NCBI RefSeq assembly: GCF_009617585.1
Contig: NZ_WIXI01000022.1
Location: 488,176-552,175, forward strand
Origin: Endobacterium cereale
Lineage (GTDB): Bacteria; Pseudomonadota; Alphaproteobacteria; Rhizobiales; Rhizobiaceae
Reading direction: 5' to 3'
Length of the DNA stretch: 64,000 bases
In this document: piece by piece, positions 52,726 through 64,000 of the stretch
Layout of the letters: each line of letters opens with the position of its first letter
Position numbering within the stretch: position 1 is the first letter of the stretch
Translations under genes and position numbers: made by a program
Notes under the pieces: model-generated
The model's database searches: none
What the model was told of the DNA's origin: nothing
Seen by the model: the letters and a program-made list of their open reading frames with translations, nothing else

Positions 52726-52868
52726 TTTAGAACGCCAGGGATGCGTCTTGCTTGGCTGGATTGAGGGTTGAGGCTCGAGATATTTTTCGAGAGATTTCGG
52801 GAGATTTTATTTTTTGGTTGCGGGGGCAGGATTTGAACCTGCGGCCTTCAGGTTATGAGCCTGACGAG
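52726..52868. repeat. Left direct repeat of the island (attL-like)
   Basis: Bases 52726-52816 match 63910-64000 with 3 mismatches in 91, all near the outer end, at a constant offset of 11,184. The left copy continues through tRNA sequence to 52868, where the match to an initiator tRNA stops. It comprises the 3' flank of the tRNA gene plus its 3' half. How far the right copy continues cannot be seen. Confidence 0.85.
52815..52868 (-). pseudogene. 3' half of initiator tRNA-Met gene, disrupted
   Basis: Minus strand gives the last 54 nt of a 77-nt tRNA-fMet: D-arm end CTCGTC, anticodon arm CAGG-CTCATAA-CCTG with CAT, T arm with GGTTCAAATCC, acceptor half CCCCGCA and encoded CCA. The 5' 23 nt (acceptor strand and D arm) are replaced by island sequence at 52869. 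Not functional here; the intact gene is predicted just right of the window. Confidence 0.85.
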
Positions 52869-54253
52869 GGCTGCACAGTATTGCGCAGGAACCAGTCGTC
52901 GTCCGTATCCGTCGATTGAGCTATACCGCCGCGATAAAGGTAGTATTCGAACGGTCCGGCAGCGACGGGGCCATTCAGACTGAACGCGCTTGCTGTCGTC
53001 GTCGCCGCGTTGATCGCATCGATGACGCGGATACCATCGCCGCTCGTCAGGGCGCCTTGTCCGTCGACGTTTGTGATCGAGATCCCGGTCGATCCACTGG
53101 CCTGACCTGAATCGATGATCAGTTGATCCGAGGGGGAGTTGTCCGTGCCCAGATACGTGTGCAGCCAGAGCGACCCGCCTTGTCCGACATAATTCCCTTT
53201 GACGCGAAATGTGTCATGTAACGTCGAACCATCGCCGGGAATATCATTTGTCAGATCGATGATACCGGCATTTTGCAGTGTGACCGATTGCACTGTATCA
53301 AACGGAACGATGCCGAAGCCATAGGAATTTCCAGCATTGATCCTGCTGGTAGAGTCGATCGAAATCGTGCCTGTCCCGGTCGCGGCATCTCCCAGTGTCA
53401 GCACGCCCGTTGTGTAGATGAAGGTCATCTGAGACCCGTCGAGAAGATTGATCTCTTCCCAATTGACAAAATTGGTCGGGTGATCGCCCCCACCGGACCC
53501 GCTATCGTTCGAGCTGCGGTGCCAGTTGAGTATATCGTTTCCGGAGCCGCCATCGACGATTTTTCCGGCAGTCAGATTGGACTGCGTCAGAAAATCGAGA
53601 TTGGCAGTGTCGTTGCCTTCCCCCATTTGTACGGTGGCTGCGATATTTCCGACGACCCAGGTGAAGCGGTCATCACCGGCGCCCATGTCAACGGATGTCT
53701 GCACAGTTCCGGCAAGGAGCCCAAGCACATCATCACCACCGCCAAGGCTGATGGCCCCGGCAAAAAAGCCGTTGTTGATGACTGTATCGTCGGAACTGCC
53801 GGTGCCGTTCACGCCATTCTGGACCGTTCCATCTCCATAATTGATGATGAAATTGGTGCCGGCGCCACCAAGGGTGATATTGCCATCGATCAGGCCGTGA
53901 TTGTTGAGGGTAAAGCGGTCATTGCTCGTGGCAATGAGACCATTGGTCAAGGTGCCATAGTTGTTCAGAACGCTTGTGCCTGGTCCCGTGACCGACACGT
54001 CGCTGGTGAAACTTGTTGTCCCATCAGCGTTGATCGTGACGGACTGCCCCAAAAAGCTCGGTCCCGGCCCCGATCCGGAGCAGTCGAACTGACCGGACCC
54101 CGGTGCGCTTTCGACGCAATCAGAATAGGCTGGACGGACGCTCAAACAGCCCAACAATGCGATTGAGGCGGCGGATGACAGGAGCAGCGACAGTCTGGGC
54201 TGGCACCACGTTTGCTGGAAATGCTGGCCGATGACAAAAGCCAAATTCCGCAT
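52853..54253 (-). CDS. Truncated autotransporter passenger (barrel missing)
   Basis: 466 residues from ATG 54253; the frame is open to a TTG at 54328. Long signal region ending near RPAYS. Beta-helix passenger with NNYGTLTNG, LNNHGLIDGNITLGG and INYGDGTVQNG repeats, then GGGDDVLGLLAGTVQ and MGAGDDRF calcium-repeat-like units. It ends in EYYLYRGGIAQSTDTDDDWF and LRNT, the passenger-barrel linker of pertactin-type autotransporters, then SSGS-stop, encoded by tRNA sequence. The ~300-residue beta-barrel is absent. Probably non-functional as an autotransporter. A 20-bp island motif lies 157 nt upstream. Confidence 0.75.
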   Translation of the reverse strand: MRNLAFVIGQHFQQTWCQPRLSLLLSSAASIALLGCLSVRPAYSDCVESAPGSGQFDCSGSGPGPSFLGQSVTINADGTTSFTSDVSVTGPGTSVLNNYGTLTNGLIATSNDRFTLNNHGLIDGNITLGGAGTNFIINYGDGTVQNGVNGTGSSDDTVINNGFFAGAISLGGGDDVLGLLAGTVQTSVDMGAGDDRFTWVVGNIAATVQMGEGNDTANLDFLTQSNLTAGKIVDGGSGNDILNWHRSSNDSGSGGGDHPTNFVNWEEINLLDGSQMTFIYTTGVLTLGDAATGTGTISIDSTSRINAGNSYGFGIVPFDTVQSVTLQNAGIIDLTNDIPGDGSTLHDTFRVKGNYVGQGGSLWLHTYLGTDNSPSDQLIIDSGQASGSTGISITNVDGQGALTSGDGIRVIDAINAATTTASAFSLNGPVAAGPFEYYLYRGGIAQSTDTDDDWFLRNTVQPSSGS

Positions 54254-54409
54254 TGTTGCGTGAGAGGGAGCTCGTCGCAAACGAGCGACGCTGACTGAAG
54301 AGCTAGCTCTGGGACGTGTCGGTTTCAAATGGCGTGGCCCCCGAAGTCTTGTTGGTTCGCAACATGATCGTCGATTATCGCCGCAGCCTGCTCAAATGCC
54401 TCGAGAAGC

Positions 54410-54429
54410 GGAAGTACGTTACTGTAAAT
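54410..54429 (-). promoter_or_regulatory. Island operator motif, copy A
   Basis: Minus strand ATTTACAGTAACGTACTTCC, in the 134-bp gap between the hydrolase stop and the autotransporter, pointing at the latter. Similarity to copy B extends beyond 30 bp. Core AGTA-N3-TACT palindrome overlaps TTAC-N-GTAA. Confidence 0.6.
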
Positions 54430-54462
54430 GCCGATGTTGCACCTTGTTCAGGCGACAGGGCG

Positions 54463-55674
54463 TCAATGGCCGAGCGGGTTAGCCTGCGGATCCGTATCAA
54501 GGGTCTGCTTCACATCCTCCGGATCAGTAACGGCAGTTTTTTTCGCAATCTGTAAAGGCGCTGCCACGGCTCCGCCTGCAACCTTGCCAACGGTTTGCAC
54601 TGTCCCTCCGACAACTGCCGCAACACCGTCTCCGAGCGTGATATTGTTGTCAGTGAGTGTCTGGCCGTTTATCAGTCGTGTGCCGATGAGCTTGACGATT
54701 TCGGGGCTTTCGGCAAACTTTCCATGGTTGAGGCGATCGTTCGTATTTACCTTCGTGAGGTCGATGGCGGTGATCCCGGCCTCCTCGAGGCGGGACCGAT
54801 ACGGTTCGCTTGTCGGGTCTATGCCGCCAAGGCGTGCGACCCGGCCTGTGATCAGGCTTGAGACGGCAAGCGCCCTGTCATCCTGGGAAACAAAGATTGT
54901 AAATTTCGGCGCGGGCTTTCCCATTTCAGCAAACTGCTTGGCGAACACCTGAATATCGATATCCGGCGAAGCGAGGATGACGTTTTTTACCTTGCTGGTG
55001 ACGTGGCCGTTGCGGATTCCCATTTGCCGCAACGCTTCCATTGCAAGCCAGGTGCCCATTGAATGGGCAAGAACGGTTATTTCCCTGACATCCTTGTCAT
55101 CCGCCAGCACGCGCAGTGTCTGCTCCAGCGAGGTGCGTGAATAGTTGGTGCTTTCCTTGTCGTATTCGTAGGCAGTCAACTGGGCACGCGAAGGCCAGGT
55201 AAATAGCACCGGCGTTGCGCGCATTCCGCTGTCGTGCACGATCTGGGCAAGGCGAAAGACTGAATCTTCGTAAGTGTTGTTGAAGCCATGAACGAAAACC
55301 AGCGCGTGGCCGGCCACCACGTGTCGACGGAACCATGCCCGCCCGTCCGCAATTGTTTGCACCTGCTGGACCCGCGTGACGGCAAAATCCGTTCTTGGAT
55401 CCGGCGGCAAGCGTTTGGGCCACTGCACCGTTCCGGGCTCGCGTTTTGCTGGAATGGAAACAGAAATATCCGTGATGAACGGTTTGGGACTGCGTTCGCC
55501 GGAAAACAAGGTTGCGGGGCTTCCGGATGGCTGACGCGTTGTTGCAACCAGCATGTCGACATGACTGGTCTTCGCTGTTGATGAAGCAACCGCAACCGGG
55601 GTCATGACGCCGGTCGGATGACCGCAGGATGAAAGCAGAACACTTACGGACAAAAGGATGGCTTTGATCTTCAT
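54463..55674 (-). CDS. Alpha/beta-hydrolase lipoprotein (DUF900-like)
   Basis: 403 residues from ATG 55674; upstream in-frame codons cover the intergenic spacer. Lipobox LLSSC (Cys17). Hydrolase core: HALVFVHGFNNTYEDSVFRL (about 122-141), TPVLFTWPSRA, and nucleophile elbow LAHSMGTWLAM, with ASPDID supplying an acid. This is the DUF900 group of large membrane-attached hydrolases. C-terminal Gly/Val-rich tail. Last gene of the five-gene exported-protein operon, 67 bp after the OmpA-like gene. Substrate unknown. Confidence 0.8.
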   Translation of the reverse strand: MKIKAILLSVSVLLSSCGHPTGVMTPVAVASSTAKTSHVDMLVATTRQPSGSPATLFSGERSPKPFITDISVSIPAKREPGTVQWPKRLPPDPRTDFAVTRVQQVQTIADGRAWFRRHVVAGHALVFVHGFNNTYEDSVFRLAQIVHDSGMRATPVLFTWPSRAQLTAYEYDKESTNYSRTSLEQTLRVLADDKDVREITVLAHSMGTWLAMEALRQMGIRNGHVTSKVKNVILASPDIDIQVFAKQFAEMGKPAPKFTIFVSQDDRALAVSSLITGRVARLGGIDPTSEPYRSRLEEAGITAIDLTKVNTNDRLNHGKFAESPEIVKLIGTRLINGQTLTDNNITLGDGVAAVVGGTVQTVGKVAGGAVAAPLQIAKKTAVTDPEDVKQTLDTDPQANPLGH

Positions 55675-55741
55675 GTCGGCTCCATCAATCCTCGGGCCGG
55701 ACGCGAACCGGACATGACGCGCCTCCGAACATCCCCGAACA

Positions 55742-56314
55742 TCATCGTGATGTGAACAGACCAAGATTGAAAAGCTGCACGCGCCGGTTGTTTGCGGCAT
55801 CAGCCCTGGAAGCTTCGATGGGAAAGCTCTCGCCCACACCGACGGCAAAAATCCTTTCGGGAGCAATGGCAAAAGTGGTCGCCAGAATTTCCTGAATTGC
55901 GGCCGCCCGCCGCTGGCTGAGATCGAGATTGTGCTCCGCGCTGCCTGTCGCGCTGGTATGGCCAACGATCAGGAATTTGTAGTCCCAGAGATTGGGATGA
56001 TGAAGCGCGTCGGCGATCAGGCCAAGCGTGCGATAGGAGCCCGGTTCGATCATCACGGAATTGTTCTTGAAGTCGATTTCGACAACCATCTGAGGAAGTT
56101 TTGTGACCTTGCTCCAGTTCGGCAGAGACGCCATGGTTCCGCCGGCCATCGCCTCCTGTCGCAAGAGTTCGACATCAACGATGGGGGTGGCGCTGGTCAG
56201 CTTGCCGAGGCTGGTGACGATGCGTTGCTCCGAGACGGCTTGGGCCGCGGCAAGGCTTGCCGAAAGCCCAACGCCCAAACCAGCCAGCAGCGAGAGGCGG
56301 ATAATTTTTCTCAT
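55742..56314 (-). CDS. OmpA-C-domain envelope protein
   Basis: 190 residues from ATG 56314 with GGAGG 8 nt upstream. Sec signal about 1-24 (AAAQA). C-terminal OmpA-like peptidoglycan-binding domain (about 85-190): LIVGHTSATGSAEHNLDLSQ, RRAAAIQEIL and NRRVQLFNLG. No beta-barrel, so a soluble or peptidoglycan-attached periplasmic protein. Four bp after the Cys-rich gene. Confidence 0.85.
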   Translation of the reverse strand: MRKIIRLSLLAGLGVGLSASLAAAQAVSEQRIVTSLGKLTSATPIVDVELLRQEAMAGGTMASLPNWSKVTKLPQMVVEIDFKNNSVMIEPGSYRTLGLIADALHHPNLWDYKFLIVGHTSATGSAEHNLDLSQRRAAAIQEILATTFAIAPERIFAVGVGESFPIEASRADAANNRRVQLFNLGLFTSR

Positions 56315-56318
56315 AACC

Positions 56319-56738
56319 TTACCTCCAGCCGGCATCGATGATGGTCTGATTGCATTCTTTCCCAACCCGGCTATGGGCCTTGTTGAGGCATGCCAGAATG
56401 TATCCGTCTCCCTTCACGCCCTTGCAGCGCCGCGCCATATCGCCTCGACACACCTTTTCATACGCGCCTTGTGCCTGCTCGCGCTTCTCGACCGAAGTGA
56501 ACACGGTCGTCAGCGATCCCGAACACGTCGGCGATATCCGCGCACTGTTCTTTTGCAGGCATTCGGCGATCCTGCCGCTGCCAAGATTGATACCGTCACA
56601 GTGTTTCTTGACATCGGAGCCGCAGTCTTGCGCCAGTTTTGTCATCGCCTCGCCATAGCTGAGGGTCTGTGCCTGAACGGCTGTCATGCCGGCGAATTGT
56701 AGCAACATGCCGACCACGGCGACATTCACCACTTTCAT
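56319..56738 (-). CDS. Cysteine-rich (GLG1-type repeat) secreted protein
   Basis: 139 residues from ATG 56738 (ATG 56750 is also possible). Sec signal about 1-23 (AVQAQ). Two matching repeats: DCGSDVKKHCDGINLGSGRI then AECLQKNSARISPTC, and VCRGDMARRCKGVKGDGYIL then ACLNKAHSRVGKEC. Each has the C-x7-C-x12-13-C-x11-C spacing of the Cys-rich repeat best known from Golgi GLG1, also found in bacteria. Role in bacteria unknown. Third gene of the operon, 46 bp after DUF2950. Confidence 0.78.
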   Translation of the reverse strand: MKVVNVAVVGMLLQFAGMTAVQAQTLSYGEAMTKLAQDCGSDVKKHCDGINLGSGRIAECLQKNSARISPTCSGSLTTVFTSVEKREQAQGAYEKVCRGDMARRCKGVKGDGYILACLNKAHSRVGKECNQTIIDAGWR

Positions 56739-56784
56739 CGTGCGCCCCATGTTAAATTGCCTCATGCGTGCGTGCCGCGACGTT

Positions 56785-57720
56785 TTAATCATCGGTCACA
56801 CTCCATCGATCATCCGGATTGAACTGGCTGATATTAGGCGCGATCTTGTCCGTTTCGTCGCCGAGATCGGCCTGGTAGACGATGCCGTTGCGATTGACGA
56901 CAAAGGTTTTCACGCCGGTCTCGCCGTATTTCACCGGCCAGGCCACCAGCCCATAACCGGCAATCATGTTTCCGTTGATCACATAGTCATAGGCGCCACC
57001 GGCGATATTGCTGCCCTGGCGGGAGAGAACCTTGTAGCGGTAACCGAAATAGCCCTTCTCTTCCTTCGAATTGAATTGGACGAAATTGATAAAGGAGGAA
57101 GCAGGGCTGAATCCCAACCCTTGCCCCTCCGGCCAATACAGGCCATCGGCACGGCCGGCGCTACTCACGAGTTTTTGGGCGTATTCCAGCACACCGTCGC
57201 CATCGCGATCTTCGCTGGCATATTCCTCCTGCGCATCGATGTAACCGAGGACGGTTTCGATCGTCTCGATTTCGTTTTCGCCAACCCTGCGATTGACGAT
57301 CTCCTCGACGCCGGTAACGGGGTCGAAGGCAAACTTTCCATTCTCCATTTTTTCGATGGGAAATGGGAAAGGCCACATGATGTCGCCGATATCGATGATG
57401 CTCTGGTCCTTGTTCGTCTCAAGGCCGATGCGTCGGGACACACCTTCCTTGACCAGCGCGACCACATCATTGATGCCTTCGGTCGATTTGAGACGGTCGG
57501 CGTTCAGTCCGATGATCGCGGCAAGCTTGTCGAGATCAGAAGCCGCAGCAGCCTCCTTGAAGGCAGACATGGCTTCATCTGCCGATGAAAACTCCTGCGA
57601 AGGCGCTTCGGAGATAAGTCCATCAAGGTTTGGTCCCTCTGCGGAATTCACTGTCACCGGCAGCATCAAGAGGCCGGCAGCAACCGTCATTGGGACGGAA
57701 GATTTTCTACCTACACGCAT
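56785..57720 (-). CDS. DUF2950-family exported protein
   Basis: 311 residues, AAGGA 8 nt before ATG 57720. Sec signal about 1-26. Recognised by FSSADEAMSAFKEAAAASDL, YFGYRYKVLSRQGSNIAGGA and GYGLVAWPVKYGETGVKTFV. DUF2950 proteins are typically encoded next to DUF3300, as here (20 bp). Function unknown; the pairing implies a shared envelope task. Confidence 0.85.
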   Translation of the reverse strand: MRVGRKSSVPMTVAAGLLMLPVTVNSAEGPNLDGLISEAPSQEFSSADEAMSAFKEAAAASDLDKLAAIIGLNADRLKSTEGINDVVALVKEGVSRRIGLETNKDQSIIDIGDIMWPFPFPIEKMENGKFAFDPVTGVEEIVNRRVGENEIETIETVLGYIDAQEEYASEDRDGDGVLEYAQKLVSSAGRADGLYWPEGQGLGFSPASSFINFVQFNSKEEKGYFGYRYKVLSRQGSNIAGGAYDYVINGNMIAGYGLVAWPVKYGETGVKTFVVNRNGIVYQADLGDETDKIAPNISQFNPDDRWSVTDD

Positions 57721-57740
57721 GACAAGATCCTTCTCTCTAC

Positions 57741-59096
57741 CTATCTGCGACGCCCGCCATGGGGCATGCGGGCATGTCCGCCACCACCGCCCCGATGGGC
57801 CGCCATATGGGCGCCGCCGCGTGGACCGGCATGGTGACCGCCTCCCATCGACAGCCCACCTCGTTGAGAATGCATTCTGGCTTGACTGCGCGGCCTGACT
57901 TCCCCGAGCCCTGATGGTCGGCTTGGACGATGATCTCTCTTTGCCGCCATGGAGTGGCGAGCGCTGCCCCGCTGGGCCTGAGGGCGCGGATTGATCTGGG
58001 CGCGATGCGCCTCTGGCGAACGACTGGCATGATCGCGCACGCCTCCGGCCTGCTGGCGCACCTTGTTGGCCCGTACGTCCTTGATGGTCGAAGGAGAAAT
58101 TTTTGCACGTTCGATATTGGCGGCGTGGGATCTTACGGATTTTGCCTTGGCACGGACTTCATTGTTGCCGCCGGCTTCAAGCCTGTTGCGGAAATTATTG
58201 CCGTCGATCTTTGAAAACTGATTGTGGTCGAACTTGATCTTGCTTCGGTCAATGTTCTTCCAGTCGGCATTGTTGAAATCGATCTTTCCATTGCGGTTGT
58301 TCATGCAATGATCGCAGTCGATATCGATATCGTTTCCATCGAACCGGCCACCCCAGACACCCCAGTCGTTCCAGTCGACAACGGCTCCGAACACGGCGCC
58401 GGTCACAAAGCCGGCAAAATAGGTCGCGGTCGGATAGACATAATTCGGATAGGGCTCGGGATAATAACCGATCGGTGCCGGGGCGTAGCTCTCGTCATAG
58501 AGCATCCGCGGCTCATATTGCGGAACATAGATCTTTTCGGGGTTCGCCGACTGGATGACCACATTGTCGTTCTGCTGAACGACACTGATCTTGTCATCAT
58601 CCTTGATAAGCCCGTTGGCCACGGCCTTGTCGCGTAATGTCTGGATCGCGATCAGCATATCCTTCTGCTGATTGGCGACCACATCACCCAATTGCTGGGT
58701 CCATTCGAGATCGTCGCTCATCATCTTGACGACATCCGGATAGTTCAGCAGAGAAACGATGCTTCCATCCCAATCCTCTTTCGGCTTCAGTGAGGGGGTC
58801 GACTTGACCTGGTCGAGAAACCGCGCCGCTTCGACGATCTGCAGCGGAAAGAGCGATGCGGATGTCGTCAGAGCCACCAACGCATCCGGATACAAAGCTA
58901 TGCGAGCGACAAGCACCTGCATTTGCTTGTCATCGAGTAGACCGGAAGAAGCTTCTTGCGCGGACTCAACGGGCGTTGCTGGCCTCGGGGAAGGCTGTTG
59001 CGCCCTCAGCCCTTGATCGCTGACAATGATCGATGCCGCTGCAGCCAAGGAGACTGCGAACTTCCATCGAAGCCCGCGGGAGGATTTATAAAGCAT
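57741..59096 (-). CDS. DUF3300-family exported protein
   Basis: 451 residues from ATG 59096 (AGGAG 8 nt upstream). Signal sequence about 1-33. Conserved N-terminal domain: LVARIALYPDALVALTTSAS, FLDQVKSTPSLKPKEDWDGS and VVANQQKDMLIAIQTLRDKA, then YVPQYEPRMLYD. The C-terminal 150 residues are Arg/His/Gly-rich low complexity, ending in a GGGGHARMPHGGRRR tail, probably unstructured and cationic. First gene of the five-gene operon, behind motif copy B. Confidence 0.85.
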   Translation of the reverse strand: MLYKSSRGLRWKFAVSLAAAASIIVSDQGLRAQQPSPRPATPVESAQEASSGLLDDKQMQVLVARIALYPDALVALTTSASLFPLQIVEAARFLDQVKSTPSLKPKEDWDGSIVSLLNYPDVVKMMSDDLEWTQQLGDVVANQQKDMLIAIQTLRDKAVANGLIKDDDKISVVQQNDNVVIQSANPEKIYVPQYEPRMLYDESYAPAPIGYYPEPYPNYVYPTATYFAGFVTGAVFGAVVDWNDWGVWGGRFDGNDIDIDCDHCMNNRNGKIDFNNADWKNIDRSKIKFDHNQFSKIDGNNFRNRLEAGGNNEVRAKAKSVRSHAANIERAKISPSTIKDVRANKVRQQAGGVRDHASRSPEAHRAQINPRPQAQRGSARHSMAAKRDHRPSRPSGLGEVRPRSQARMHSQRGGLSMGGGHHAGPRGGAHMAAHRGGGGGHARMPHGGRRR

Positions 59097-59228
59097 CGAC
59101 ACAACTCCTGTCTGACTGCGCAACCGACGGCAGCTTCAACGCAGCAGCATGGAGCTGGTGCTCACCGAAAGTCGGCATCCTGAATTCTCTTGAGCCTTCG
59201 GACAGCGCACCAAAAAAGTGGGAGGCGT

Positions 59229-59248
59229 GGAAGTACGTTACTGTAAAT
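59229..59248 (-). promoter_or_regulatory. Island operator motif, copy B
   Basis: Minus strand ATTTACAGTAACGTACTTCC, identical to copy A over 20 bases, 132 nt upstream of the DUF3300 start. Confidence 0.6.
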
Positions 59249-59525
59249 GACGATATTGCCTGCACAGGCCGGTGCTCAACGCCGTGATCCCGCAGCACTC
59301 GCCTGTAAGATGTACATCGAAGTATTTTCGCTGCTTCCAGCATCTTCGGCTGAGCCATCGGTGACATTCAACGGCCGTCTCACCGGCGACTTGACGAGAC
59401 GCCTTGCTCATATGTCAAAAGCTCGCTTAGCGCCGAATACACAAGATAATTCGGCAGTTTTACTCTCAACGAACGCAGCGCTTTAGGCGCCTTTGGTCCA
59501 CAGCGGACTCCATCGTTACATCAGG

Positions 59526-59545
59526 ATTAACTGTAACGTACTTCT
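59526..59545 (+). promoter_or_regulatory. Island operator motif, copy C
   Basis: ATTAACTGTAACGTACTTCT, 17 of 20 identical to copies A and B, 110 nt upstream of the sulfatase start and pointing at it. Confidence 0.55.
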
Positions 59546-59654
59546 GCATTGACAGGTTAGCTGGCACTAAATTTCCGTCACTCTCAATGAGAGTTGCTGC
59601 TCGCTCTCATGAAATTCTGCCATCTGTAATCTGAGAACCACGGAGGCTTGACCG

Positions 59655-61229
59655 ATGAGACTTTCTGGCAAACTTGCTGCGTTAGCAGTGCTGCTCCTCA
59701 GCAGCTCCAGCTTTGCACAACAGTCCCGAACCCCGCCCCCTAATAAGCCGAATATCCTTGTTATCTTTGGCGACGACATCGGCCAAGCCAACGTTTCGGC
59801 TTACACGATGGGGGTGATGGGCTATCGAACACCAAATATTGACCGCATCGCTAAAGAAGGCGCGATTTTCACCGACTATTATGCCGAGCAGAGTTGCACG
59901 GCAGGGCGGTCAACCTTCATCACGGGCCAAGCAACGTTGCGGACCGGTCTCTCCAAGGTTGGTTTACCTGGCGCCCCTATCGGCCTCCAGAGCAGCGATG
60001 CCACGATTGCGTCGGCGCTCAAGCAGGGAGGCTATGCCACCGGTCAGTTTGGCAAAAACCATCTTGGTGATCGTGACGAGTTTCTTCCGACAAACCACGG
60101 CTTCGACGAGTTCTTCGGCAATCTCTACCACCTAAACGCCGAGGAAGAGCCGGAAGACCGCAATTACCCGCAGGACCCAAGCTTCCGGAAGCAATACGGC
60201 CCTAGAGGCGTCATCAAGGCCTCTGCAGATGGTAGGATCGAGGACACCGGGGCGCTCACCCGCAAGCGCATGGAGACTATCGACAACGAGACGTCTGCCG
60301 CTGCTATCGATTTCATGAAGCGCCAACATGATCAAGGCAAGCCTTTCTTCACTTGGTTCAACACTACGCGCATGCATGCACGCACCCATGTCAGCGACGC
60401 CCACCGCAGTCCGCCGGGTCTAACCGCTCCAACCGAATATGCAGACGGGATGGTGGAGCACGACGGGATTGTCGGCGACGTGCTGAATTCGCTCGATGAG
60501 ATGGGCATCGCAGACAATACGATCGTCGTCTATACGACCGACAACGGCCCACACGAGAATACGTGGCCGGACGCCGCGAATTCTCCGTATCGGAACGAGA
60601 AGACCTCCAATTGGGAAGGCGCATTTCGAGTTCCGGCGATGGTTCGTTGGCCTGGGCATATACAGCCAGCGACCCAATTGAATGGGATCGTGTCTGGCCT
60701 CGATTGGTTTCCAACGCTGCTTGCCGCGACGGGGGACATCGACATCAAAGATCGCCTGCTGAAGGGTACCTCACTCGGCGGCAAGAACTATAAAAACCAC
60801 CTCGACGGCTTTAACCAGCTCGACTATCTGACTGGAAAAGCTCCGACCAGTGCCCGTCGGCAGTTCTTTTACTTCAATGACGACGGTGATCTTGTCAGCC
60901 TACGCTACGAAAACTGGAAGCTCGTTTTCGAGGAACAGCGGGTAAATGGCACAATGGCAATTTGGGCTGAGCCGTTTACCAAGCTACGCCTCCCGAAGAT
61001 GTTCGATCTGCGTGCTGACCCTTACGAAAAGGCGGATATCACGTCGAACACATACTGGGATTGGCTCTTTCAGCATGCCTATCTCGTAGTTCCAGCCCAA
61101 GCGGAAGTGGCAAAATTCTTTGCTACCTTCAAGGACTACCCACCCGCGCAACGTCCTGCGAGCTTCTCTATAGATCAAATTCAGGAAAGGCTGAACGCGT
61201 CGTTCAATACAATGGGTGGCGGACGGTAA
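59655..61229 (+). CDS. Secreted arylsulfatase-type sulfatase
   Basis: 524 residues. Sec signal about 1-22 (SFAQQ). Metal Asp pair in VIFGDDIGQ (40-41), formylglycine motif CTAGR at Cys81 (needs a formylglycine-generating enzyme), TPNIDRIAKEG, GKNHLGD, YTTDNGPH and late C-terminal strand. Cleaves sulfate esters in the periplasm or outside. The C-terminal segment FKDYPPAQRPASFSIDQIQE is echoed downstream at 61457-61564. Codon usage and AT content differ from the core genes. Motif copy C lies upstream. Confidence 0.88.
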   Translation: MRLSGKLAALAVLLLSSSSFAQQSRTPPPNKPNILVIFGDDIGQANVSAYTMGVMGYRTPNIDRIAKEGAIFTDYYAEQSCTAGRSTFITGQATLRTGLSKVGLPGAPIGLQSSDATIASALKQGGYATGQFGKNHLGDRDEFLPTNHGFDEFFGNLYHLNAEEEPEDRNYPQDPSFRKQYGPRGVIKASADGRIEDTGALTRKRMETIDNETSAAAIDFMKRQHDQGKPFFTWFNTTRMHARTHVSDAHRSPPGLTAPTEYADGMVEHDGIVGDVLNSLDEMGIADNTIVVYTTDNGPHENTWPDAANSPYRNEKTSNWEGAFRVPAMVRWPGHIQPATQLNGIVSGLDWFPTLLAATGDIDIKDRLLKGTSLGGKNYKNHLDGFNQLDYLTGKAPTSARRQFFYFNDDGDLVSLRYENWKLVFEEQRVNGTMAIWAEPFTKLRLPKMFDLRADPYEKADITSNTYWDWLFQHAYLVVPAQAEVAKFFATFKDYPPAQRPASFSIDQIQERLNASFNTMGGGR

Positions 61230-61246
61230 ATAGGCATCAACAATGG

Positions 61247-61267
61247 GCCCGGACGTTTCGTCCGGGC
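61247..61267 (+). terminator. Sulfatase terminator
   Basis: GCCCGGACG / CGTCCGGGC 9-bp stem with a TTT loop, 17 nt after the stop, followed by GGAATTTTCG. Confidence 0.6.
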
Positions 61268-61456
61268 GGAATTTTCGCTTCATGTGAAGCATGAATAGGA
61301 CCCATCGGGATCCGACGCTCTTGTTTCGATTGCTGTTACCATACGACCGACTGCGCGAAGACTGCTGATGGCCCATTCCCGCCATTTCCCGCTTAGTAGT
61401 GGTGCTTGAAACGAGCCAAAACTTTGGCCAAGCTGCGACCAATAACAGCGTGTGGG

Positions 61457-61564
61457 CGTTTCTTGGGAACGTTCAAGGACTGCCGATCAGCCCAGGGAGG
61501 CGCAAGCTTCTGGATCAACCAGATCCAAGAACCACTGAGGAAGTCGTTTGACGCAATAGCCCAA
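61457..61564 (+). pseudogene. Relic of the 3' end of a second sulfatase gene
   Basis: Translates to RFLGTFKDCRSAQGGASFWI then NQIQEPLRKSFDAIAQ, aligning with the C terminus of the sulfatase (KFFATFKDYPPAQRPASFSI then DQIQERLNASFNTM) at roughly half its residues. No catalytic domain precedes it. Divergence suggests an old paralogue, not a fresh copy. The 404-bp gap 61230-61633 holds nothing else recognisable apart from the hairpin at 61247-61267. Confidence 0.65.
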
Positions 61565-61633
61565 TTTCGGCGGGCAAGACCGGCTCACGGCACCCGTGAG
61601 CCAGCGCCTTCCCGTCTACCTTCGGGAACTCCA

Positions 61634-62290
61634 ATGGAAAACCAATCGTATATCCAAATGGACGTGCGAGACAGCGGCAGCAAACGCAGCCGTTCGTCAG
61701 TCGATCTCGTCGTAGACGCTTTCATCTTGGCCGCTTCAAGCGTTCCCATGACAAAGACTGTTTGCAAAGAAGGCCCTCTCCTTTTCAATTTCGCCAATGA
61801 CGCGTCTCGCTACGATCACGATGAGATCACGCAGGTTTTGAAGAAACAAGACAAAGGCGGCCGGCAGACCCGCCGTTACGACGAGCATCTGTTTCGGCAA
61901 TTGCTGGACAGCGTGGTTGGCAAACCGCACGCCATTACCGCTTGCTTGATTGATACCCACCCTTCTTCGGGAAAACCGTCACAAAAGCTTCTGCAATGGA
62001 GGGAGTTCGTCGATCCCGCCCGCGACGGCGCTGTACTGCCAATCGTCAGGATCAGAGCGAGCATGTGCGCGGCATACCGTGGAGGCGTCGTCAAACTTGA
62101 AAACGCACTCACCGACAACGGCTACCTACCATTCCTCATCAAAAATGAGGGAAACACGGACCTGAATGAGAAATTGCGTGCCAAGATTGGCGCTGCATTC
62201 GAGCTTATAGGCGCTTATCAAAAGAATGCGCGTCGTGTCGGCAGTGCTTTTACAGTCCCACAATGGCCCGCGATAGTTCTGATGAGTTAA
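61634..62290 (+). CDS. Unknown cytoplasmic protein
   Basis: 218 residues from ATG 61634; the open frame continues upstream only through the sulfatase relic. No signal peptide or membrane segment. N terminus basic and Ser-rich (SGSKRSRSS), centre with KKQDKGGRQTRRYDEHLFRQ, C terminus helical (KLRAKIGAAFELIGAYQKNA). No family recognised. SD weak (GGGAAC). Stands between sulfatase relic and membrane protein. Confidence 0.55.
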   Translation: MENQSYIQMDVRDSGSKRSRSSVDLVVDAFILAASSVPMTKTVCKEGPLLFNFANDASRYDHDEITQVLKKQDKGGRQTRRYDEHLFRQLLDSVVGKPHAITACLIDTHPSSGKPSQKLLQWREFVDPARDGAVLPIVRIRASMCAAYRGGVVKLENALTDNGYLPFLIKNEGNTDLNEKLRAKIGAAFELIGAYQKNARRVGSAFTVPQWPAIVLMS

Positions 62291-62389
62291 AATAGGAAAC
62301 CATCGAGCACAGGTATCCCGGGCCTAATCAGGTTCCGATCCGCATTCCATCGCGGAGAAGAAGCCGTCAGCCAGGCCCGCGAAACGTCA

Positions 62390-62409
62390 GTTTACAGTAA
62401 CATACTTTC
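62390..62409 (+). promoter_or_regulatory. Island operator motif, copy D
   Basis: GTTTACAGTAACATACTTTC, 17 of 20 identical to copies A and B, only 36 nt before the start of the membrane-protein gene and pointing at it. Confidence 0.55.
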
Positions 62410-62444: not shown

Positions 62445-63665
62445 ATGAGCGAACAACCAATCAATGTTCCTCCCGAGAAGGGCCCGCCAGGCGTTGCACC
62501 ACGCAGACCGCTTGCGTTGCGCCTCGCCCATGGCGGGCCCTTTTTTCACATTCAACGAAAGCTTGGACTTGTTCATGAAACGGATTTGCGGGCGTGGCCA
62601 CGAGCCGCCCTTTATGTAAGCCTGGCGTGGGCTGTGCCGCTATTTCTGACGCTTCCGATTCTATCCGGATCTTCAAGCGCAATGTCGGATTACCTTTCTG
62701 ATCCTGCTCCCCTCAGCCGATTTCTGATCGGTGTCGGCTGCTTCATCCTCGCGGAGAAAAGGATCGAGGCTACTGTGGACGAAAAATTGAGCCAATTCGA
62801 TCACACCGCGCTCGTCGCCACAGGTTCACAAGCCCTGCAGGGCAAGGCGGCTTCCTTGGCGGAAAGAAGAAAAAACGCAGGTTTTGCAGAGGTCATTTGC
62901 CTTCTCCTCGCGGTCGCGGCCAGCGCTTTTGCCTTCGATAGCCATCGAGATGGGTCCGTCTTGACGTGGGCAGCAACGCAGGAGGTCGACGAAACCGTCA
63001 TTACGCTTGCTGGCTGGTGGTGTTTATTCGTTAGTATCCCACTCTTCTTCTTTCTATTCCTGCGTTGCCTGTGGCGTCATGTCGTCCTGGTCGGTTTTCT
63101 ACATCGTCTTGCCTGCTTTAATTTGCGCCTGGTAGCAACGCATCCCGATGGCAAAGCTGGTCTGTCATTTTTTGGAAACTATCCAAATGCTTACTGGCCG
63201 TTCGTCTTCGGAGCCAGTTGTGCGATCGCGGCAGCTCTTTGGAAGCACGCAGGTCAGTCCGCACTCTCCGCAACCACCTTCGCCACGGTCATGGGGGCAT
63301 GGCTGCTCATCGTGCTCGTGTTTTTCGCGGCAGGTCTGTTGGCGTTTTCCCAACCTATCCGCGCCGTCAAGGAGGCGTCTCTCCAGAAAATCTCGGCTCA
63401 AGCCACCATCTTCCAGCGATCGTCGGAACGGCACGCTTTAGGAGAAAATGTCGCTGCGAATGACCCGAGCGAAAAAGAGGATTTGGCAGGCCCCGACATG
63501 ACGAAGCAATATGAACAGGTAGGCAAGGTTTCAAGCTTGCTGGTTGACAGAAGCATGCTCCTGCCCTTGGCTGCGGCCGCGCTTCTGCCCTTTTCTGTTG
63601 CTGGAGCCACCCACATTCCGGCAAAGGAGGTCTTGTCTGTTTTCAAGAAACTCCTTCTTTTGTGA
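62445..63665 (+). CDS. Unknown multi-span membrane protein
   Basis: 406 residues. About six to seven hydrophobic segments: near 50-72, 88-104, 149-165, 190-220, 245-262, 275-300 and 378-398. The N-terminal ~45 residues (Pro/Arg-rich, RRPLALRLAHGGPFFHIQRK) and the 300-370 loop are cytoplasmic-like. A Gln/Ala-rich helical loop with EKRIEATVDEKL follows TM2. No family recognised. It is led directly by motif copy D and is the last intact gene of the island. Confidence 0.6.
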   Translation: MSEQPINVPPEKGPPGVAPRRPLALRLAHGGPFFHIQRKLGLVHETDLRAWPRAALYVSLAWAVPLFLTLPILSGSSSAMSDYLSDPAPLSRFLIGVGCFILAEKRIEATVDEKLSQFDHTALVATGSQALQGKAASLAERRKNAGFAEVICLLLAVAASAFAFDSHRDGSVLTWAATQEVDETVITLAGWWCLFVSIPLFFFLFLRCLWRHVVLVGFLHRLACFNLRLVATHPDGKAGLSFFGNYPNAYWPFVFGASCAIAAALWKHAGQSALSATTFATVMGAWLLIVLVFFAAGLLAFSQPIRAVKEASLQKISAQATIFQRSSERHALGENVAANDPSEKEDLAGPDMTKQYEQVGKVSSLLVDRSMLLPLAAAALLPFSVAGATHIPAKEVLSVFKKLLLL

Positions 63666-63679
63666 GGAGTGAGGCCGAT

Positions 63680-63955
63680 ATGAAAAGTCGCTGCAAGATG
63701 TCGATCGAACACGTTTCCCAACAGCAATAACGTTGAGCCGCCCTAAGAGCCGCCAGAGAATTTAAAGCGAAAATTGACAGGCTGAAAACACAGTTCGATC
63801 CGACCCAAACCGCGATCGCCATTTTCAAGCTAATCTTGCTAGCGCGAAACTATGCCGACGAACAGTCCAAGCGTCGTTTGATGCCGACATTGGAGGCTTA
63901 TAACGTCACTTTAGAACGTCCAGGATGCGTCTTGCTTGGCTGGATTGAGGGTTGA
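63680..63955 (+). pseudogene. Short broken ORF running into the right repeat
   Basis: In one frame: MKSRCKMSIEHVSQQQ, stop (63728-63730), R, stop (63734-63736), then AALRAAREFKAKIDRLKTQF, DPTQTAIAIFKLILLARNYA and DEQSKRRLMPTLEAYNVTLE, ending with a TGA at 63953-63955 inside the direct repeat. The second part reads like real protein with amphipathic helices. Two adjacent stops suggest decay; a start after them is not evident. Family not recognised. Confidence 0.35.
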
Positions 63956-64000
63956 GGCTCGAGATATTTTTCGAGAGATTTCGGGAGATTTTATTTTTTG
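63910..64000. repeat. Right direct repeat of the island (attR-like)
   Basis: 88 of 91 bases identical to 52726-52816. The last two bases (63999-64000) correspond to the first two bases of the tRNA 3' end in the left copy, so the repeat and the tRNA should continue beyond the window. Confidence 0.85.

Follow-up and report, generated by a model that had tools for sequence, protein, structure and literature searches.

A conserved box before sulfatase and envelope genes in Endobacterium cereale and its relatives, with a predicted CadC/ToxR-like membrane protein as its probable activator

Four transcription units in a short part of the Endobacterium cereale genome carry the same 20-bp motif, and the locus raises the question of which regulator would read it. 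The window, i.e., the whole 64 kb stretch of DNA analysed here (C14:488176-552175 of the 6.1 Mb genome G000), contained the four copies exactly where the first-pass annotation had placed them. Copies A (54410-54429, minus strand) and B (59229-59248, minus) showed no mismatches to the 20-mer, and copies C (59526-59545, plus) and D (62390-62409, plus) showed three each. The 20-mer was not matched in 100 dinucleotide shuffles of the window. It was otherwise absent across the 64 kb at up to three mismatches, in agreement with the annotation, which had noticed none in the core sequence. Each copy points toward the gene that had been assigned to it, i.e., an autotransporter, a DUF3300 unit, a sulfatase, and a membrane protein. 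The motif belongs to a conserved box that, in Rhizobiaceae and related bacteria, stands before a set of sulfatase and envelope genes. From sequence and predicted structure, this box is probably the binding site of a predicted CadC/ToxR-like membrane activator, P0001, encoded on contig C30. The earlier proposal of a regulator site common to the four units, controlled from outside the window, is supported by these results.

In the own genome, the core TTTACNGTAACGTACTT was found in 10 copies at up to one mismatch, compared with 0 in the reversed control, and every copy points into a gene. The copies were not scattered in coding regions, a result that would have spoken against the earlier proposal. 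They form three clusters before genes, i.e., four in the window, four at C30:12879-20216, and two at C8:42751 and 43021. Site B is, in addition, contained in two short mechanically called open reading frames (ORFs). The C30 sites precede the small gene P0002, a mechanosensitive channel, a sulfatase, and a member of the Asp-Al exchanger family. The two C8 sites are divergent and precede a sulfatase and a DUF1254 gene. The MoxR and FGE genes of C30 are preceded by two weaker sites, TTTACCGTTGCGTACTT and TTAACCGTTGCGTACTT, which by count are not above control; the TTGC form was also found before MoxR or FGE in the relatives G004, G016, and G035. A paralogous regulator, small gene, and gene set were found on the own contig C22 (161500-184000; L211/L212), with their own box variant GTWACNGTAACANNCTT. 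This variant precedes the sulfatase, the FGE-like gene, and other genes of C22, and the same cluster holds DUF900 and MoxR genes. Seven of the eight genomic matches to this second motif lie within about 22 kb of C22, including all four exact matches, and the eighth is site D of the window.

A scan of named genomes for the exact core gave at least 118 loci, 80 of them by title from Hyphomicrobiales, i.e., Rhizobium, Phyllobacterium, Brucella/Ochrobactrum, and others, and 38 from other taxa. Some earlier locus analyses took 80 of the 118 loci, and the final context and gene-type statistics took all 118. Among the matches listed, 71 of 91 Hyphomicrobiales exact sites with at least 350 nt downstream precede a gene homologous to the own-genome set, whereas 0 of 38 sites in other taxa do so. 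The genes behind the 71 sites were sulfatases (18), DUF1254 (15), P0002-type (9), FGE (8), outer-membrane proteins (7), DUF3300 (3), and 11 others, i.e., MoxR, channel, lytic transglycosylase, Cys-rich, exchanger, DUF900, and membrane protein genes. The motif ends at a median of 62 bp before the start of the picked ORF. Exact copies within a mechanical ORF of at least 200 aa on either strand amounted to 23 of 97 in Hyphomicrobiales and to 25 of 39 in other taxa; these numbers, too, refer to the matches listed.

The anatomy of the box was scored in 94 contexts, and later in 81 and then 113 non-redundant ones. Only the 17-bp core was used for site finding, so that conservation of the flanking positions is informative. 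A second TTAC was found at offset -10 in 38 of 113 contexts (next best offset 7), which gives TTTAC-N7-TTTAC with a half-site 12 bp upstream. C18 and C19 were conserved in 75 and 83 of the 113 contexts. Downstream, an extended -10 element, TGnWWnnnT, stands at fixed spacing (T36 in 51, G37 in 64, and T44 in 70 of 113; p 4e-22 for T44). The conserved box overall is TTTAC-N7-TTTAC-N-GTAACGTACTTCC followed by the extended -10. The overlapping palindromes that had been described, TTAC-N-GTAA and AGTA-N3-TACT, were only partly right. AGTA-N3-TACT is ruled out as a conserved element, because its first A falls on a free motif position (A in 22% of 94 contexts).

The sites of the window show this geometry in part, with the TG at three of four and T44 at three of four. 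Site A (core 54412-54428) has a -10-like element at about 54393-54385, in which A40 and T44 match and the TG does not. At site B (core 59231-59247), the TG at 36-37 and T44 are present (about 59212-59204). Site C (core 59527-59543, one core mismatch) has a good distal half-site, GTTAC, 12 bp upstream, with the TG and A40 present and T44 absent. Site D (core 62391-62407, one core mismatch) has both the TG and T44, and at one mismatch it also matches the second motif, that of the C22 paralogue.

Since the extended -10 lies at fixed spacing, the 3' end of the core falls at the -35 position. Such a geometry would suit class II activation at a weak sigma-70 promoter, and an activator bound at the -35 region is the most likely user of the box. 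A site over -35 could also block polymerase, so that P0001 might bind the box as a repressor. This is unlikely, however, because a poor -35 hexamer is conserved along with an extended -10, as in activator-dependent promoters, the spacing to the -10 is fixed, and the precedent of CadC/ToxR, in the available text of PMC5430869, is activation.

P0001 is a 578-aa protein, and its small partner gene P0002 bears a box. The predicted structure consists of an OmpR/PhoB-type winged helix (N-terminal and cytoplasmic), a low-confidence linker, a membrane helix at 164-181, and a periplasmic CadC/TPR-like part. A single hydrophobic peak (19-residue mean 1.71-2.54) was found in 12 of 12 P0001 homologues. 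In the search with the predicted fold of the N-domain, 20 of the first 22 matches listed were response-regulator DNA-binding domains. The Pfam matches of P0001 included no receiver domain; the predicted structure has the membrane helix and the TPR part instead. In the database entries examined, P0001-type proteins are named as TPR, hypothetical, or adenylate cyclase proteins and not as regulators; NCBIfam names neither P0001 nor P0002. P0002 (L010:12525-12818) has 97 aa and an invariant GLWRLML-L-P motif, and it accompanies the regulator gene in relatives. It showed no Pfam or NCBIfam match and no signal apparent by eye. P0002 could be a partner that tunes the regulator.

The link between P0001 and the box was searched in 297 family genomes, where a strong homologue was defined by at least 200 bits and up to four candidates were scored per genome. 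Sixteen genomes have such a homologue, and they include all 10 that carry two or more sites. In the remaining 281 genomes, none has two or more sites and seven have one, which is near the control rate (27 reversed-control matches in 297). In G003, G014, G025, and G028, with a regulator 36-40% identical, the box is shifted, e.g., GTAACCGTTGCGTACTT with GTTAC upstream.

Twelve plasmid DUF3300 loci, hand-picked from 40 of 183 records, were used as a further control. The two loci whose regulator reaches 40% identity (R. grahamii and N. petrolearium) have five sites each at up to two mismatches, and the six loci with no homologue in the stretch have none at that threshold. The stretches of S. meliloti RCAM1750 and GR4 contain DUF3300, DUF2950, sulfatase, and channel genes, with no regulator homologue within 29 kb and no box. 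The presence of the box is thus tied more closely to the regulator than to the targets, because these target-bearing stretches without regulator lack it and the loci at or above 40% identity have five sites each. In the R. etli p42a stretch (L233), a weak homologue of the regulator was found, and no gene of the set.

Several results weigh against P0001 as the reader of the box. Three of the 16 regulator-bearing genomes have no site and three have only one, and the co-occurrence is partly the shared ancestry of one gene cluster. Identity of the regulator does not fix the motif, since G010 at 37% keeps the strict form and the four genomes with the shifted box do not. On the plasmids, Ensifer adhaerens L238 has two relaxed sites; the stretch itself encodes no homologue, and one at 33% lies at another place on the plasmid; S. 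mexicanum L241 has no relaxed site, though its plasmid bears a 32% homologue elsewhere. Of four loci with a 25-29% homologue, two have a variant box and two no related box. At up to three mismatches, the first motif falls below control in the own genome (20 matches vs 36 in the reversed control). The second motif at up to one mismatch gave eight matches vs seven in the reversed control, so that its support lies in its clustering and exact matches. A good distal half-site was found at one of the four window sites (C), and site D lies 37 bp before an ATG, which would leave a leader of about 4 nt if the -10 assignment is right. As for the protein, the Pfam matches at E 0.01 did not include a winged helix, i.e., the OmpR-type family Trans_reg_C, and the profile A4 gave no PDB matches. 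P0001 was therefore not assigned to this sequence family. Foldseek alone gave the N-domain only E 0.2-0.3, with PerR first. CadC was the first Foldseek match of the periplasmic part (E 2.2e-6), but with a TM-score of 0.24, a root-mean-square deviation of 18, and TPR proteins close behind, and it was not among the 50 matches listed in another search.

If P0001 acts at the box, a periplasmic signal would change its sensor part. Its DNA-binding domains, placed on two or three half-sites, would then contact the sigma-70 polymerase where the -35 is weak and the -10 extended. The genes activated together would be those of exported sulfatases, the FGE maturase, DUF3300/DUF2950, outer-membrane and channel proteins, and P0002. 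The content of the gene set can be described more closely. PF00884 was found in three of three sulfatases checked, with the C-x-[PA]-x-R signatures CTAGR, CSPTR, and CTAGR, i.e., the Cys-type which needs FGE, and an FGE-sulfatase (PF03781, E 2e-81) lies within the same set. Many of the products look exported or envelope-bound, judged by eye from N-termini and families. We lean slightly toward a wider view, in which the exported-sulfatase, FGE, and envelope programme of rhizobia and kin is run by a family of membrane one-component activators that the annotations and papers examined do not treat as regulators. Such proteins would combine a winged helix that has diverged beyond the reach of Pfam with a TPR-like sensor in the periplasm, and would have a tiny partner protein. 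Paralogues in the same genome would be insulated circuits, each with its own operator variant and gene set.

At S. meliloti RCAM1750 plasmid p_1 (L231), the DUF3300-DUF2950-sulfatase locus lacks the regulator and the box, and genes for a histidine kinase and a response regulator adjoin it. This suggests a change of control circuit. Such a pair, encoded near some of the gene sets, could also mean that a two-component response regulator binds the box instead of P0001, and ORFs in the G010 and G014 clusters resemble a kinase/response-regulator pair by their first residues. This explanation is quite improbable, because the S. meliloti stretch has the pair without the box, and no such pair was recognised among the scanned ORFs of the own-genome clusters, which were a part of the ORFs there.

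A promoter of an alternative (ECF-type) sigma factor would also account for the strong conservation and its fixed distance to the gene start. An ECF promoter consists of two hexamers, and the box is unlike that. The conserved element is about 31 bp, with repeated half-sites and a sigma-70-like extended -10 at its end, and no sigma gene was recognised in the scanned clusters. We regard this as very unlikely. The site of a general alphaproteobacterial regulator, e.g., ChvI or CenR, is hardly credible, although both systems also control envelope genes in the available text of PMC9731502 and PMC9561847. The ChvI sites reported there are N-GCC-N8-GCC or TTGC-N3-GCAA (PMC9731502), and the CenK-CenR paper gives AgTCAC--C--cGTgAct at four promoters including srlA and chvI (PMC9561847). 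These consensus sites differ from the box, by which a ChvI or CenR site was ruled out, and 287 of 297 family genomes do not have the box at two or more sites. A spreading repeat with no regulatory role, to which the 38 bp shared by copies A and B at 87% identity might point, can practically be dismissed, because the flanks differ among the 113 contexts, the placement relative to genes and the -10 is fixed, and the motif tracks the regulator gene.

Of the genes around the four sites, the autotransporter passenger behind site A (52853-54328, minus) has an autochaperone domain (PF18883). The unit behind site B, all on the minus strand, starts with DUF3300 (PF11737, 57741-59123), followed by DUF2950 (PF11453, 56785-57720), a Cys-rich repeat protein (PF00839, 56319-56792), and an OmpA-family protein (PF00691, 55742-56365), and ends with a DUF900 alpha/beta hydrolase (PF05990, 54463-55695). 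The sulfatase behind site C (PF00884, 59655-61229, plus) has the Cys-type signature CTAGR. The membrane protein behind site D (62445-63665, plus) had no Pfam or NCBIfam match, and its homologues adjoin DUF2950 in relatives. Between these two genes, an ORF at 61406-62290 showed only a partial match to the phosphoketolase N-terminal domain (PF09364, profile 152-278 of 364). This could be what is left of a gene, or a domain arrangement that is new.

The four units had been placed on an island, and they do sit there, but its edges are flank repeats of rRNA operons and it is doubtful as a biological unit. Direct repeats of 91 bp flank it. The left copy (52726-52816) is fused to the 3' part of a tRNA-fMet (to 52868), and the right copy (63910-64000) is followed, just past the window, by an N gap and a 5S/23S rRNA operon. 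Contigs C32 and C36 terminate inside tRNA-fMet, as would be expected of an assembly that breaks off at rRNA operons. The reading as a genomic island targeted to a tRNA and bounded by att repeats was therefore rejected. The tRNA fragment runs straight into the autotransporter gene, which is cut in its proline-rich linker, and the matching beta-domain part starts contig C30 in a CCG repeat, then DUF6065. In Aliirhizobium terrae (G016), the autotransporter gene is whole and stands in one cluster with DUF3300, FGE, P0001, and sulfatase genes, then DUF6065. The simplest reading, and a very probable one, is an assembly misjoin at 52868; the island would then continue the C30 cluster, with the regulator as its neighbour. 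It may also be a true rearrangement at this point. Annotations that treat 52.9-63.9 kb as an island here are doubtful.

No paper on this motif or regulator, and no rhizobial CadC-like regulator of this gene set, was among the literature matches listed, in a coverage that leaves most subscription journals outside. The searches for the string GTAACGTACTT, for DUF3300 with sulfatase, and for DUF1254/DUF1214/sulfatase combinations found no paper, and mentions of the DUFs were few among the papers listed. The available text of a paper on acid stress in R. tropici (PMC5936775) has one table line on choline sulfatase and makes no link there. A regulator and its operator are thus proposed for a conserved and unexplained gene set, including DUF3300 and DUF2950. 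Exported sulfatases and their maturing enzyme are suggested to be switched on jointly by one membrane protein, and the paralogues with shifted boxes form a natural series in which DNA recognition by such regulators can be studied.

The two adjacent genes DUF3300 and DUF2950 are the same pair as in root-nodule bacteria, where two RNA-seq studies on symbiotic nitrogen fixation are reported to have seen its induction, with no hint of function; the available text of that paper (PMC4653623) names no regulator, motif, or sulfatase link. Since the pair stands in two S. meliloti stretches that contain neither box nor regulator, induction there needs other control. Unlike the PhoB/OmpR response regulators of the Pho box, P0001 has no receiver domain and has a membrane helix and a periplasmic part. 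It differs from ToxR of Vibrio cholerae in its TPR-like periplasmic part and in P0002, which lacks a signal by eye and a family match. The predicted plan of P0001 resembles that of CadC of Escherichia coli, with a winged helix at the N-terminus, a linker of low confidence, a single membrane helix, and a periplasmic part of alpha/beta and helical-repeat structure. Two AT-rich sites, with the consensus TTAxxxxT, and a disordered linker are also described for CadC in the available text of PMC5430869. However, neither Pfam (at E 0.01) nor the PDB sequence-profile search gave a match for the P0001 N-domain. CadC controls one lysine decarboxylase operon, and its site Cad1 lies at -153 to -113, whereas the box abuts the -35, stands before sulfatases and envelope genes in many units, and comes with the small partner gene P0002.

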